Positions 43,403-47,186 of a stretch of DNA of 64,000 bases are shown in pieces. The notes beneath the pieces were generated by a model. That model ran no database searches, was not told the DNA's origin, and saw only the letters and a program-made list of their open reading frames with translations. The position numbers were made by a program, and so were the translations under genes. This DNA is from Lysobacteraceae bacterium PS02340 (GTDB lineage: Bacteria > Pseudomonadota > Gammaproteobacteria > Xanthomonadales > Xanthomonadaceae): contig JASCOC010000002.1 of assembly GCA_029959605.1 (NCBI GenBank), forward strand, positions 62,001-126,000, written 5' to 3'. How positions within the stretch are numbered: position 1 is the first letter of the stretch; each line of letters opens with the position of its first letter.

Positions 43403-43957
43403 CTACCGCTCGTCCGCCGGACGCACCCGCCAGACCGGCGTCATCGTGACGGTCTGCGACTCGCTCATCAGCTGCAGTTCGCCGTCCTGGATCATCGCGG
43501 TCAGGCGCATGCTCCGCTGCAGCAGACCGACCGCCTCTTCGATCTTCGCCGGGTCGAGATCGACCACGGTGAGGTTCTTCAGGCGCGTGAGCGAATTCGC
43601 GATCCGCTCCCACCAGATCTGCGCGGCGTTGCCGCTGTAGTTCACCACCACAACCTGGCGCGAGCGTCCGCTGGCCTTGCGGATGCGGCTCTCGTCCGGC
43701 TGGCCGAGATCGATCCACTGCTCGATGTCGCCGGTGTAGTCGCGGCGCCACAGATCCGGCTCTTCCTCGTTGCTGAGGCCGCGGCCGAATTCGAGGCGTT
43801 CGTCGGCGAACAGCGCGAAGGTGATCAGCCGCACCATCAGACGCGCTTCGGTCTCCGACGGGTGCTGCGCCAGCACGAGGTCGTGCGAGGCGTAGTAATG
43901 CCGGTCCATGTCGGTGACCTGGAGTTCGGCTTTGTAGACGGTGGCCTTGGGCGCCAT
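43403..43957 (-). CDS. yaeQ: YaeQ family protein
   Basis: 184-residue protein of the YaeQ family, which has a PD-(D/E)xK-like fold but no proven activity. Characteristic segments are ATVYKAELQVTDMDRHYYA, ETEARLMVRLITFALFA, LSNEEEPDLWRRDYTGDIEQWIDLG and ANSLTRLKNLTVVDL. Old reports link E. coli YaeQ with haemolysin expression in rfaH mutants, which is weak evidence for function. ATG at 43957; convergent with the response regulator gene. Confidence 0.93.
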   Translation of the reverse strand: MAPKATVYKAELQVTDMDRHYYASHDLVLAQHPSETEARLMVRLITFALFADERLEFGRGLSNEEEPDLWRRDYTGDIEQWIDLGQPDESRIRKASGRSRQVVVVNYSGNAAQIWWERIANSLTRLKNLTVVDLDPAKIEEAVGLLQRSMRLTAMIQDGELQLMSESQTVTMTPVWRVRPADER

Positions 43958-44065: not shown

Positions 44066-44914
44066 ATGCCTGATCCACGCCGTTCCGCCCCCGCCCCCCT
44101 GTTTTCCGACACCACGCCGCCCGCGCTGCTCGAGCGAGTCGACGCTTGGGATCTGGCCGTCGCCGACGGTCCGGTCATCGCGACCGCGATCCACGACGGT
44201 CATGCGCTTCGCCCGTCGCTGCGCGCACGCGTCAAGCTCGACGACGATGCGCGCTGGCGCGAGGAAGACCCGCTCACCAGCCTGCTGACCCAGGTCGGCG
44301 ACACCCGACTGCGGGTGCGCCAGTCGCGCTTCGAGGTCGATCTCAACCGCCCGCGGGCCGAAGCCGTCTACACCGGTCCCGAGGCCTGCTGGGGCCTGGA
44401 TGTCTGGACTACACCGCTCGACGACGCGGAACGTGAGACGTCGCTGGCACTGCACGACCGCTTCTACGACACGATCGGTGAGCTGATCGACCGCACGGTC
44501 GCCCGTTGGGGCAGCGCGCTGCTGATCGACATTCACAGCTACAACCACCGCCGCGATGGACCCGACGCCGCGCCCGCGTCGCAGGATGCCAATCCCGACA
44601 TCGAACTCGGCATCACCACACTCGATCCCGAGCGTTGGGGCGAGACTGCGAAGCGCTTCGCCAATGTGCTGCGCCGGCATCCCGTGCGCGGCGCTTTGCC
44701 GGACGTGCGCTGCAATGTGCGCTTCCCGACCGGCGGCCACTTTCCCGAATGGGTCTTCGAGAACTGGGGCGATCGCGTCTGCACGATCTCGCCCGAGTAC
44801 AAGAAGATCTTCATGGACGAATGGAGCGGCCAGGCGGACATCCCCGCGCTGTACGCACTACGCGATGGCCTGTCGCATGCGGTCGACGCGGTGCGTCCGG
44901 AGTTCCTCAAGTGA
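44066..44914 (+). CDS. N-formylglutamate amidohydrolase family protein
   Basis: 282-residue member of the family named for N-formylglutamate deformylase of histidine breakdown. Likely metal-site residues lie in AIHDGHALRPSL and LLIDIHSYNHRRDG; RQSRFEVDLNRPRAEAVY and RFPTGGHFPEWVFENWGDRVC are further conserved-looking blocks. There is no hut cluster here. Instead the stop overlaps the GTG of the next gene by 4 bases, so this is the first gene of a coupled trio with a metalloprotease and an ATP-grasp ligase. ATGs at 44057 and 44066 are both possible starts. The substrate is probably some other N-acyl or gamma-linked compound (inference). Confidence 0.88.
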   Translation: MPDPRRSAPAPLFSDTTPPALLERVDAWDLAVADGPVIATAIHDGHALRPSLRARVKLDDDARWREEDPLTSLLTQVGDTRLRVRQSRFEVDLNRPRAEAVYTGPEACWGLDVWTTPLDDAERETSLALHDRFYDTIGELIDRTVARWGSALLIDIHSYNHRRDGPDAAPASQDANPDIELGITTLDPERWGETAKRFANVLRRHPVRGALPDVRCNVRFPTGGHFPEWVFENWGDRVCTISPEYKKIFMDEWSGQADIPALYALRDGLSHAVDAVRPEFLK

Positions 44915-46125
44915 GCGCGGGCGTTGCCCGGCGGCCGGTCGCACGACCGTTGCCGCCGGTGGCCGCGCACGTCGACGAAGCGCTCGCTGCGCTCGATGCG
45001 CGGCTCGACTGGCTGCTGGCCCTGTCGCCGCTGGACGGCGTGGGTTTGTGGAACGCCTTCGAAACCTCGGGCCGCACGCTCGAACCCACGCTGCGCTACG
45101 TGGACCTCGACACCGATCTGGTCGAGACGCGCCGGGCGCTCGATGCCCTGCCCGTCAGCGAGATCGAATCACCGGCGCTGCAGGCACTGCTGGCCGAGAA
45201 GCAGGGCGAACTGGGCCGCATGATCGATCTGGTCGAACAGCGCGACCAGGCCGGTTTCGTCGATGCCAGCGTCGCGTTGTTCGGCGCGGTGGAACCGGAA
45301 CTGCTGGCGCTCGCCGAGCGCATCCTGGCGAGCGTGGGCAGCGGTGAGCCACTGGCTGCCGACTGCGGTATCGACGAGGTGCGCAGCCAGGTCGACGCCG
45401 AGATCGCCTGGTACCGCGCGCAGGCGCCGGACTTCCACATCGACGTCGTCGTGGATACCGACATCAGCTCGATGCTGATGGTCTCGCACGGCACCTTCTA
45501 CATCGACGGCAACATCCGCCTGCCGCGCGCACGCGTGCAGCCGCTGATCCAGCACGAGATCGGCACGCACGTCGTCACCCGCCACAACGGCCGGCAGCAG
45601 GCCTTGCGCCAGCTCGAAGTCGGCCTGGCGCACTACGACCCGATGCAGGAAGGGCTCGGCGTGCTCGGCGAATTCCTCACCGGCTACCTGCCCGGAGAGC
45701 GCCTGCGCATCCTCGCCGCACGCGTGGTCGCGACCTCGATGGCCGCTCGCGGCGAACAGCTGCCGGCGATCTTCGCCTGCCTGCACGAAACCCATGACAT
45801 GCCGACCGACGACGCCTTCGACGTCGCCGTGCGCGCACGGCGCGGTGGCGGCCTGACCAAGGACGCCGTCTATCTGCGCGGCCTGTGCGATCTGCTGGCC
45901 TATCTGGAAGCCGGCGGCGATTTCGATGCCCTGTTCCTCGGCAAGTTCGCATTGCCGCAGCTGGAACTGCTGGACTCGCTGGTCGACGACGGCTGGATCG
46001 TGCCGCCGGCCCTGCTGCCCCGCTACACCACCCACGAGGATTTCCGCAGCCGCCTCGACGCATGCCGGCGCACGCCGGTCGAGCGCCTCTTCCACACACA
46101 CCGCACCCCGGAGCATGCTGCATGA
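44911..46125 (+). CDS. DUF1704 (QEGLA-motif) HExxxH metalloprotease-like protein
   Basis: 404-residue soluble protein of the family annotated as flavohaemoglobin expression-modulating QEGLA-motif protein. The zinc motif is HEIGTH (His215, Glu216, His220), and MQEGLGVLGEFLTGYLPG provides Gln246-Glu247, the likely third ligand. The same fold and motif are found in the animal tubulin tyrosine carboxypeptidases MATCAP (KIAA0895L), so a carboxypeptidase-type activity is plausible. The N-terminal ~170 residues are helical. It starts at a GTG overlapping the amidohydrolase stop, and its own stop overlaps the ATG of the ATP-grasp gene, so all three are translated together. Confidence 0.88.
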   Translation: MSAGVARRPVARPLPPVAAHVDEALAALDARLDWLLALSPLDGVGLWNAFETSGRTLEPTLRYVDLDTDLVETRRALDALPVSEIESPALQALLAEKQGELGRMIDLVEQRDQAGFVDASVALFGAVEPELLALAERILASVGSGEPLAADCGIDEVRSQVDAEIAWYRAQAPDFHIDVVVDTDISSMLMVSHGTFYIDGNIRLPRARVQPLIQHEIGTHVVTRHNGRQQALRQLEVGLAHYDPMQEGLGVLGEFLTGYLPGERLRILAARVVATSMAARGEQLPAIFACLHETHDMPTDDAFDVAVRARRGGGLTKDAVYLRGLCDLLAYLEAGGDFDALFLGKFALPQLELLDSLVDDGWIVPPALLPRYTTHEDFRSRLDACRRTPVERLFHTHRTPEHAA

Positions 46126-47186
46126 CAGACGGACATCCCCTGCGTTTCGGCTTTGTCGTCAACGACGTCGACACCGAGCAGGACAACTACACCACGATCC
46201 GTCTAGCCCGCCGCGCCCTGTCGCGCGGCCATGAGATCGCGTTGATCGGTCTCGCCGACTTCACCTACGACGCCGACGGCACCGTGCGCGCCTGTGCGCA
46301 CATGCCCTGCGGACAGGATTACGCCGACGATGCGGCCCTGCTCGCCGACCTGCAGTCGGACGAGTGCCCGACGGAGCGCATTTCCGTCGACGATCTCGAC
46401 GTGCTGATGCTGCGCAGCGATCCCGCCGACGAGATGGTCGAACGCCCCTGGGCGCCCGGCAGCGGCCTGCTGTTCGCGCAGCTCAGCGCGCTGAAGCGGG
46501 CACTGGTGGTCAACGACCCGACGCACCTGACCGACGCCTCGAACAAGACCTACTTCCAGCATTTCCCAGAAGAAGTCCGCCCCGTCACCTGCATCAGCTG
46601 CGACATCGACGAGATCAAGGCCTTCATCGAAGCGCGCGAAGGCTACGGCGTCATCAAGCCGCTGCAGGGCTCGGGTGGCCAGAGCGTGTTCGTGGTCACC
46701 CCGGAAAGCGCCGGCAATCTCAACCAGATGATCGACGCCGTGCTGCGCGACGGCTATGCGATCGCCCAGGAATACCTGCCCAAGGCGAAGGACGGCGACC
46801 TGCGTCTGCTGATGCTCAACGGCCGTCCGCTCGAAGTCGACGGCACCTATGCTTGCATCCGGCGCTACAACGACAGCGGCGATGCGCGCAGCAACATCAG
46901 CGCCGGCGGCAAGTACGAGATGGCCAAGCCCGATGCCGATGCGTTGCGTCTGGCCGAACTGGTCGCGCCGAAACTGATCCGCGACGGCATGTACTTTGTC
47001 GGCCTCGACATCGTCGGCGACAAGCTGATGGAAGTGAACGTCGACACCCCCGGCGGCATCAACATGCTCGAGGAACTGACCGGCCTCGATTTCTCGGGCC
47101 GCATCCTCGAAGACCTCGAGCGCAAGCTGCGCCTGCGCAAGCATTACGGCAGGACGCTCAGCAACGTCGAACTGGCGATGCTCTGA
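46122..47186 (+). CDS. glutathione-synthetase-like ATP-grasp ligase
   Basis: 354-residue ATP-dependent carboxylate-amine ligase. It follows GshB layout: N-terminal Rossmann-like domain (FGFVVNDVDTEQDNYTTIRL, LDVLMLRSDPADEMVERP), then the ATP-grasp with YGVIKPLQGSGGQSVF, IAQEYLPKAKDGDLRLLMLNGRPLEV and the metal-binding end LMEVNVDTPGGINMLEELTG. Glutathione synthase itself is usually beside gshA, absent here, and the long insert near 40-75 differs from GshB. Together with the two coupled genes upstream it probably makes an amide bond to a small molecule or peptide not yet identified (inference). Confidence 0.85.
   Translation: MTDGHPLRFGFVVNDVDTEQDNYTTIRLARRALSRGHEIALIGLADFTYDADGTVRACAHMPCGQDYADDAALLADLQSDECPTERISVDDLDVLMLRSDPADEMVERPWAPGSGLLFAQLSALKRALVVNDPTHLTDASNKTYFQHFPEEVRPVTCISCDIDEIKAFIEAREGYGVIKPLQGSGGQSVFVVTPESAGNLNQMIDAVLRDGYAIAQEYLPKAKDGDLRLLMLNGRPLEVDGTYACIRRYNDSGDARSNISAGGKYEMAKPDADALRLAELVAPKLIRDGMYFVGLDIVGDKLMEVNVDTPGGINMLEELTGLDFSGRILEDLERKLRLRKHYGRTLSNVELAML

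Follow-up and report, generated by a model that had tools for sequence, protein, structure and literature searches.

A GshB-like ligase, an amidohydrolase-like protein and a MATCAP-type metallopeptidase form a widespread and misnamed three-gene module

Operons that combine a ligase with hydrolases are known, and neighbourhoods of ATP-grasp amidoligases with peptidases were reportedly surveyed by Iyer and colleagues in 2009, in a work that may already list the arrangement described here. We analysed a stretch of 64,000 nt from Lysobacteraceae bacterium PS02340 (assembly GCA_029959605.1, contig JASCOC010000002.1, positions 62,001 to 126,000 of the forward strand; referred to as the window), in which three overlapping genes code for two predicted hydrolases, FG and MC, and a predicted ligase, GS. 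The closest described systems are the N-formylglutamate amidohydrolases (FGases), among them HutG, for FG, human MATCAP1/TMCP1 (KIAA0895L) for MC, and GshB and the RimK-type alpha-L-glutamate ligases for GS. MATCAP enzymes take off tubulin tail residues and polyglutamate, as stated in the part of PMC10499314 that was available; in a word-start search this part contained neither 'prokaryot' nor 'DUF1704', and the available part of PMC12393276 added nothing on active-site details of MATCAP. The literature search on DUF1704 yielded one paper, on Plasmodium; judging by titles, most of the further papers that turned up for PF08014 and related family names concern malaria, and the accessible text of a 2015 paper on ATP-grasp enzymes (PMC4431377) mentions neither COG3930 nor formylglutamate. 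No function was assigned to the trio in the literature found, with most subscription papers lying outside the search.

All three genes of the trio are located on the + strand. FG (44066-44914) is an N-formylglutamate-amidohydrolase-like, presumed zinc hydrolase of 282 aa (PF05013, E 4.6e-21). MC (44911-46125), which starts with GTG, is a MATCAP/DUF1704 (QEGLA-motif) metallopeptidase of 404 aa (PF08014, E 3.2e-74) and represents a short form lacking an N-terminal FGase-like domain. GS (46122-47186) is a GshB-like ATP-grasp ligase of 354 aa (PF02955, E 4e-45, plus PF02951). The original prediction, made from the letters of the window, had proposed that the genes overlap from stop to start, and the letters at both junctions agree with this: the GTG start of MC and the TGA stop of FG share the four bases GTGA (44911-44914, + strand), while the ATG of GS and the TGA of MC share ATGA (46122-46125, + strand). 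The overlaps may keep the three products in a fixed proportion, as that prediction had held. The presence of the trio in the window is confirmed.

Tabulation of the gene neighbourhoods of MC relatives, which had been set beforehand as a test, revealed a grouping far above chance. The 80 named loci considered are the best 80 of 540 MC relatives and lean to trio members, because the search profile was built from trio-type MC. In 66 of the 80, FG, MC and GS follow each other in this order on the + strand; the others have on this strand GS and MC (8/80), FG and MC (1/80) or only MC (5/80). Two of the latter five (L191, L174) have partners on the opposite strand, and MC is alone in the other three (L161, L173, L178). 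Going by record titles, the named loci span Pseudomonadota, Planctomycetota, Gemmatimonadota, Bacteroidota and Calditrichota, among others.

A phylogenetic profile over 369 genomes, a draw from one class, gave the same picture: thresholds of 248 bits for GS and of E<=1e-60 for MC select exactly the same 14 genomes. The GS search was limited to matches of E 1e-40 or better, and the GS of loci with fused FG-MC genes (see below) scores under this limit. Besides the window's own genome, 16 of the 369 have MC at E 1e-30 or better. In the 16 loci that were read from this draw (L068, L093-L107) GS is found alongside in 15 and FG in 14; the loci of L068 and L101, without FG, stop at a contig end, and the FG of L097 is split over two frames. 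Within the genus, 22 other trio-type loci exist; 20 of them were retrieved, all but G007 and the broken G001, and each of the 20 has FG, MC and GS. In G001 (contig C15, 6818-7779) the trio-type MC appears as two matches with a TAG inside and looks broken. Two other same-genus genomes, G019 and G003, carry a second trio alongside the usual one (L043 and L044, respectively), and that of L043 is merely 35-44% identical to the window trio. In Sinorhizobium medicae (L011, 1342-4500) FG and MC are separated by two genes annotated as group II intron reverse transcriptases.

Trio-type MC and stand-alone MATCAP genes form two groups that are separable by score. The stand-alone set comprised 24 loci with some 5 kb of flanking sequence (L108-L131; shorter on one side in L109, L124 and L130), 25 loci with about 1.5 kb (L014-L038) and the copy of the window's own genome, genome G035 being in both sets. 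FG was found beside none of the 24 loci with long flanks, and the sole ATP-grasp match among them, of 27 bits and on the opposite strand, was in L129. These data support the view that the trio is one inherited unit. Two pattern matches on viral contigs were both unrelated to it. The trio is a real, widespread and misnamed module: as the original prediction had suspected, the database names seem to mislead; the scores for hutG, QEGLA and NF009110 (glutathione synthetase) are all under the curated cut-offs.

In MC, alignments place the presumed zinc-binding motif HEIGTH (HExxxH) at residues 215-220 (45553-45570, + strand) and the QEGL motif at residues 246-249 (45646-45657, + strand), both of which had been pointed out in the original prediction. 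E247 is likely the third zinc ligand, corresponding to EEG in human MATCAP, whose role is described in the available part of PMC10499314. An alignment of 30 sequences and one of 44 show no variation at H215, E216, H220, Q246, E247 and G248. A loss of zinc ligands in most homologues, which would have spoken against the original prediction, was thus absent, the presumed zinc residues being kept in 44/44. MC scores 250.5 bits against PF08014 (gathering cut-off 27) and 271.8 bits against the NCBIfam QEGLA model (cut-off 338.65); its closest named relative, with 93% identity, is from Luteimonas sp. 9C, and the window probably comes from a Luteimonas. Human MATCAP1 (7z5g) is matched with E 4.2e-18 by a profile built from 30 MC sequences, and the human and bacterial proteins line up at HEIGTH, at the glutamate of EEG/QEG and at the motifs KDxVYLxG and GK. 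Unlike the human enzyme, bacterial MC neighbours a ligase and an amidohydrolase and often bears an FGase-like domain. The genome of the window has a second, stand-alone MATCAP-family gene (contig C14, 15032-16111) that is nearer to the Pfam profile (380.7 bits) than MC; it adjoins a GTPase-like frame, taken for RsgA by eye.

Three forms of MC can be distinguished. The short form of the window occurs in Luteimonas, Erythrobacter and relatives, while a long form with about 225 additional N-terminal residues is found in 49 of the 80 named loci. In the third form FG and MC share one reading frame (L105, L106, L107, L213, L215, L216), with GS upstream of the fused gene in L105, L106, L215 and L216; L213, L215 and L216 are from Vibrio and Photobacterium. 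In Vibrio the fused gene follows a divergent gene for a LysR-type regulator and a maoP (DUF413) gene, and similar-looking frames, judged by eye, precede GS in Photobacterium.

The upstream extensions of MC belong to one family in 66 of 77 tested, and this family matches FG with an hhalign probability of 97.4 (E 1.2e-11). Profile comparison gave no match of the extension to MC or GS, and Pfam scans of three long proteins (L177, L012, L199) left it without a match. An AlphaFold model of the long MC of L199 (pLDDT 93.4) suggests two domains. Residues 35-227 of the model resemble the FGase 2q7s (VIA Z 13.7, 3.1 Å over 178 residues) and also 2odf (Z 11.1) and M14 carboxypeptidases (Z up to 11.6), and residues 264-626 resemble MATCAP 7z6s (VIA Z 24.8, 3.0 Å over 290). 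The structure comparison set beforehand thus predicts the MATCAP fold for a long relative of MC, although L199 and 7z6s, when structurally aligned, are about 20% identical. In the alignment of the FG and extension profiles, the column opposite H157 of FG holds W in 35 of 46 sequences and H in none; a loss is visible for this one presumed zinc ligand, because the alignment leaves out H43 and D68. Apparently, the N-terminal domain of long MC is an inactive FGase-fold domain that is encoded beside a live FG gene. To the grouping itself our data add the FG-MC fusions and this FGase-fold domain on many MC proteins. Contact between FG and MC is probable, given their fusion in some genomes and the apparently inactive domain on many MC proteins.

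In FG itself, residues H43, D68, S87-R88, D92, N94-R95, H157, N217 and E244 align with the other, stronger FGase that its genome encodes, and alignments of 27 and 41 sequences were made for its relatives: H43, D68 and E244 are kept in 41/41 and H157 in 40/41, the exception being L107. From the fold family we take H43, D68 and H157 to be the zinc binders. The AlphaFold model of FG (pLDDT 93.0) gave VIA Z 23.9 to 2q7s and 22.7 to 2odf, and the profile had no match to PDB sequences at E 0.1. FG shares with HutG the FGase fold and the aligned catalytic residues, but it reaches only 20 bits against hutG (TIGR02017; equivalog cut-off 278.75) and its genome holds a separate, stronger FGase match on contig C44. 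The original prediction had stressed that no histidine-utilisation gene is nearby. This is correct for the five neighbours of the trio scanned with Pfam (YaeQ, LytTR regulator, His kinase, glyoxalase-like and MFS), among which there was no such gene and no gshA.

GS is homologous to GshB over nearly its full length. Compared with E. coli GshB (1gsa), a profile built from 30 GS sequences matches over most of the length with E 6.9e-56 and 193 bits; its match to RimK-type glutamate ligases has E of about 4e-18 and 69 bits. GS keeps a GshB-like N-terminal domain, while the ATP-grasp domain and an SPG motif are shared with RimK. Where GshB has SPTC and RimK has SPG, GS has SPGG in 14 of 30 and TPGG in 13 of 30 sequences (TPGG in the window), and it contains an additional RPWA-type stretch. 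The best NCBIfam model is the GshB-family model NF009110 (PRK12458 subfamily) with 394.5 bits, just under its cut-off of 408. The scores against TIGR01380 (171.1 of 299.05), NF003573 (190.1 of 272) and the RimK model TIGR00768 (59 bits, subfamily cut-off 143.4) are also below the respective cut-offs.

The genome of the window harbours a much stronger GshB on contig C77 (PF02955, E 7.6e-74 versus 1.4e-45 for GS) and a GshA-type gene (PF04107) on C14; PF04262 had no match in it. GS is therefore probably not needed for glutathione. The same finding qualifies the earlier description of a ligase without gshA: it holds for the five neighbours but not for the genome. We extended this comparison to 38 genomes with trio-type MC, hand-picked from the 80 loci at about one per genus, seven of which have no FG or no GS on the strand of MC (L173, L174, L176, L178, L190, L192, L201). 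PF04107 is present in 25 and PF04262 in 2 of these genomes, whose completeness was not given. All 11 genomes with neither of the two gamma-glutamylcysteine-ligase families have GS at the locus; they include a Sphingobacterium isolate (L189) and a chromosome-level metagenome-assembled genome (L176), and several are drafts. Absence is not proof in each genome, because the Sinorhizobium draft L203, one of the 11, has no PF04107 and its relative L204 has it. PF04107 also includes other ligases, so that its presence does not prove GshA either. Both the separate GshA- and GshB-type genes and the 11 of 38 genomes argue against a ligase that simply makes glutathione, the outcome that would have overturned the original prediction, and GS is probably not the glutathione enzyme.

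Based on homology and kept residues, we suggest that GS, FG and MC act as a module on one amide-linked amino-acid or peptide conjugate, to which we give a probability of about 0.5. The three proteins would work in the cytosol on a shared substrate that is built and unbuilt by the cell and is probably a short peptide or amino acid of acidic (glutamyl-like) character. By homology to GshB and RimK-type enzymes, GS would use ATP to form an acyl phosphate on a carboxylate and then join an amine. The kept residues of FG suggest a zinc amidohydrolase splitting an N-acyl bond that adjoins a free carboxylate, and the kept motif of MC, together with the MATCAP fold of its relative, suggests a zinc carboxypeptidase that takes off a C-terminal residue. 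FG and MC would probably be in contact, and the apparently inactive FGase-fold domain may dock or regulate FG. The earlier reading of the trio as a ligase/hydrolase set is partly supported by these data, and an add-and-remove cycle is plausible.

Several observations weigh against this interpretation. In five of the 80 loci (L163, L176, L190, L192, L201) MC and GS are present, but no FG shows in the upstream sequence, which is about 3.7 kb long or longer. L213 and L107 carry FG-MC and lack GS in the available stretch; the members of the trio are therefore not strictly inseparable. In the fused protein of L107 the FG part is without H157 and R95, and ligase and live FG may have been lost together there. 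Two weaker GS matches occur without a strong MC (G336, G112). Tandem GS genes adjoin MC in L101 and L102, which suggests two ligation steps and not a simple cycle. No fourth conserved gene was found beside the trio, each Pfam family matching at most 3 of 148 neighbouring open reading frames, and the literature searched gave no enzyme activity for any of the three proteins.

In the window, yaeQ (43403-43957) is located upstream of FG and divergent, and downstream of GS a glyoxalase-like gene and a major facilitator superfamily (MFS) gene point in the opposite direction. The neighbour scan mentioned above covered 148 of 155 open reading frames from 39 of 40 picked loci (one row for the last locus), with the first 330 residues at most and the longest frames first; some of these may be spurious. 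Apart from the trio itself, the 36 largest clusters listed in an all-against-all comparison are mostly genus-bound, generic (ABC ATPase in 16 loci, MscS in 7) or seem to be shadow frames of the trio. Against expected numbers of 0.13 for CorA and 0.43 for MscS, CorA genes lie near 4 and MscS genes near 5 of 38 loci, both tested post hoc after 126 neighbour families had been viewed; these odds are rough, because the expected values stem from whole-genome Pfam counts (55 and 185, over about 176 Mb) and the models behind the observed numbers were seeded with part of the same matches. Among 50 stand-alone MATCAP loci, CorA is near two (L115, L129) and MscS near none. MgtE_N matched three neighbours of the trio, and a follow-up motif search gave none.

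The available part of PMC10308900 reports for Photobacterium damselae at 1% versus 3% NaCl that a 'GshB' gene (A0J47_RS17020) is up 38.42-fold and a 'QEGLA' gene (A0J47_RS17025) 27.51-fold. We presume that these are trio genes from their names, the adjacent tags and the order of GS followed by FG-MC in two other Photobacterium. In that part of the paper the 'GshB', probably the trio ligase, is read as glutathione synthase and related to colonisation ability. In the accessible part of PMC3091676, a table of genotype differences in Vibrio vulnificus lists VV2_1203 (COG3930) next to VV2_1204 (glutathione synthetase). The salt response and the CorA and MscS neighbours point to low ionic strength, and not to a substrate.

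Among other explanations, a modification of protein tails survives best, though we consider it unlikely: GS would add C-terminal residues, as RimK does on S6, MC would remove them, as MATCAP does on tubulin, and FG would trim or edit. The profile match of GS to RimK-type ligases, the SPGG/TPGG motif in 27 of 30 sequences and the known action of MATCAP on tubulin tails and polyglutamate are in agreement with this, but the profile is far closer to GshB and the neighbour scan revealed no common protein target gene adjoining the trio. Recycling of murein peptides, re-joined by the ligase and trimmed by FG as an M14-type amidase-like and MC as a carboxypeptidase-like enzyme, is less probable still. 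The FG model resembles the D,L-carboxypeptidase Csd4 (VIA Z 12.4), and the low-salt induction described in the part of PMC10308900 available, together with the MscS neighbours, would fit envelope stress. However, Z values of about 12 are common to many M14 carboxypeptidases and far under those for FGases, and the 25 neighbour families shown out of 126 include no murein gene family. Equally doubtful is a small natural-product pathway yielding a secreted dipeptide or modified peptide. ATP-grasp ligases often act in this way, and the tandem GS copies would be compatible with it, but the trio is spread bare over many phyla and the neighbour families shown contain no conserved transporter or biosynthetic gene, small precursor-peptide genes not having been looked for. 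A role in glutathione metabolism, with GS as the synthase and FG and MC recycling or degrading glutathione or its conjugates, is the least probable, since GshB as closest solved relative, the near-miss NF009110 score and the possible supply of the precursor through the GshA-type gene of the genome are opposed by the far stronger GshB elsewhere, the 11 genomes with neither ligase family and the low scores against TIGR01380 and NF003573.

A module acting on one amide-linked conjugate thus remains our preferred interpretation. A more speculative extension, which we regard as rather improbable, is that it is a bacterial system for building and unbuilding an acidic amino-acid conjugate, switched on at low ionic strength, and that the carboxypeptidase of a bacterial module of this kind, kept there with its own ligase, is the ancestor of the tubulin-tail carboxypeptidases of animals. 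Three misleading names are attached to a gene set that is spread over many phyla, and knowledge of the substrate would correct many annotations at once. It could also show the origin of the MATCAP fold of the tubulin code, and the fusions and the additional FGase-like domain make a complex of FG and MC directly testable.

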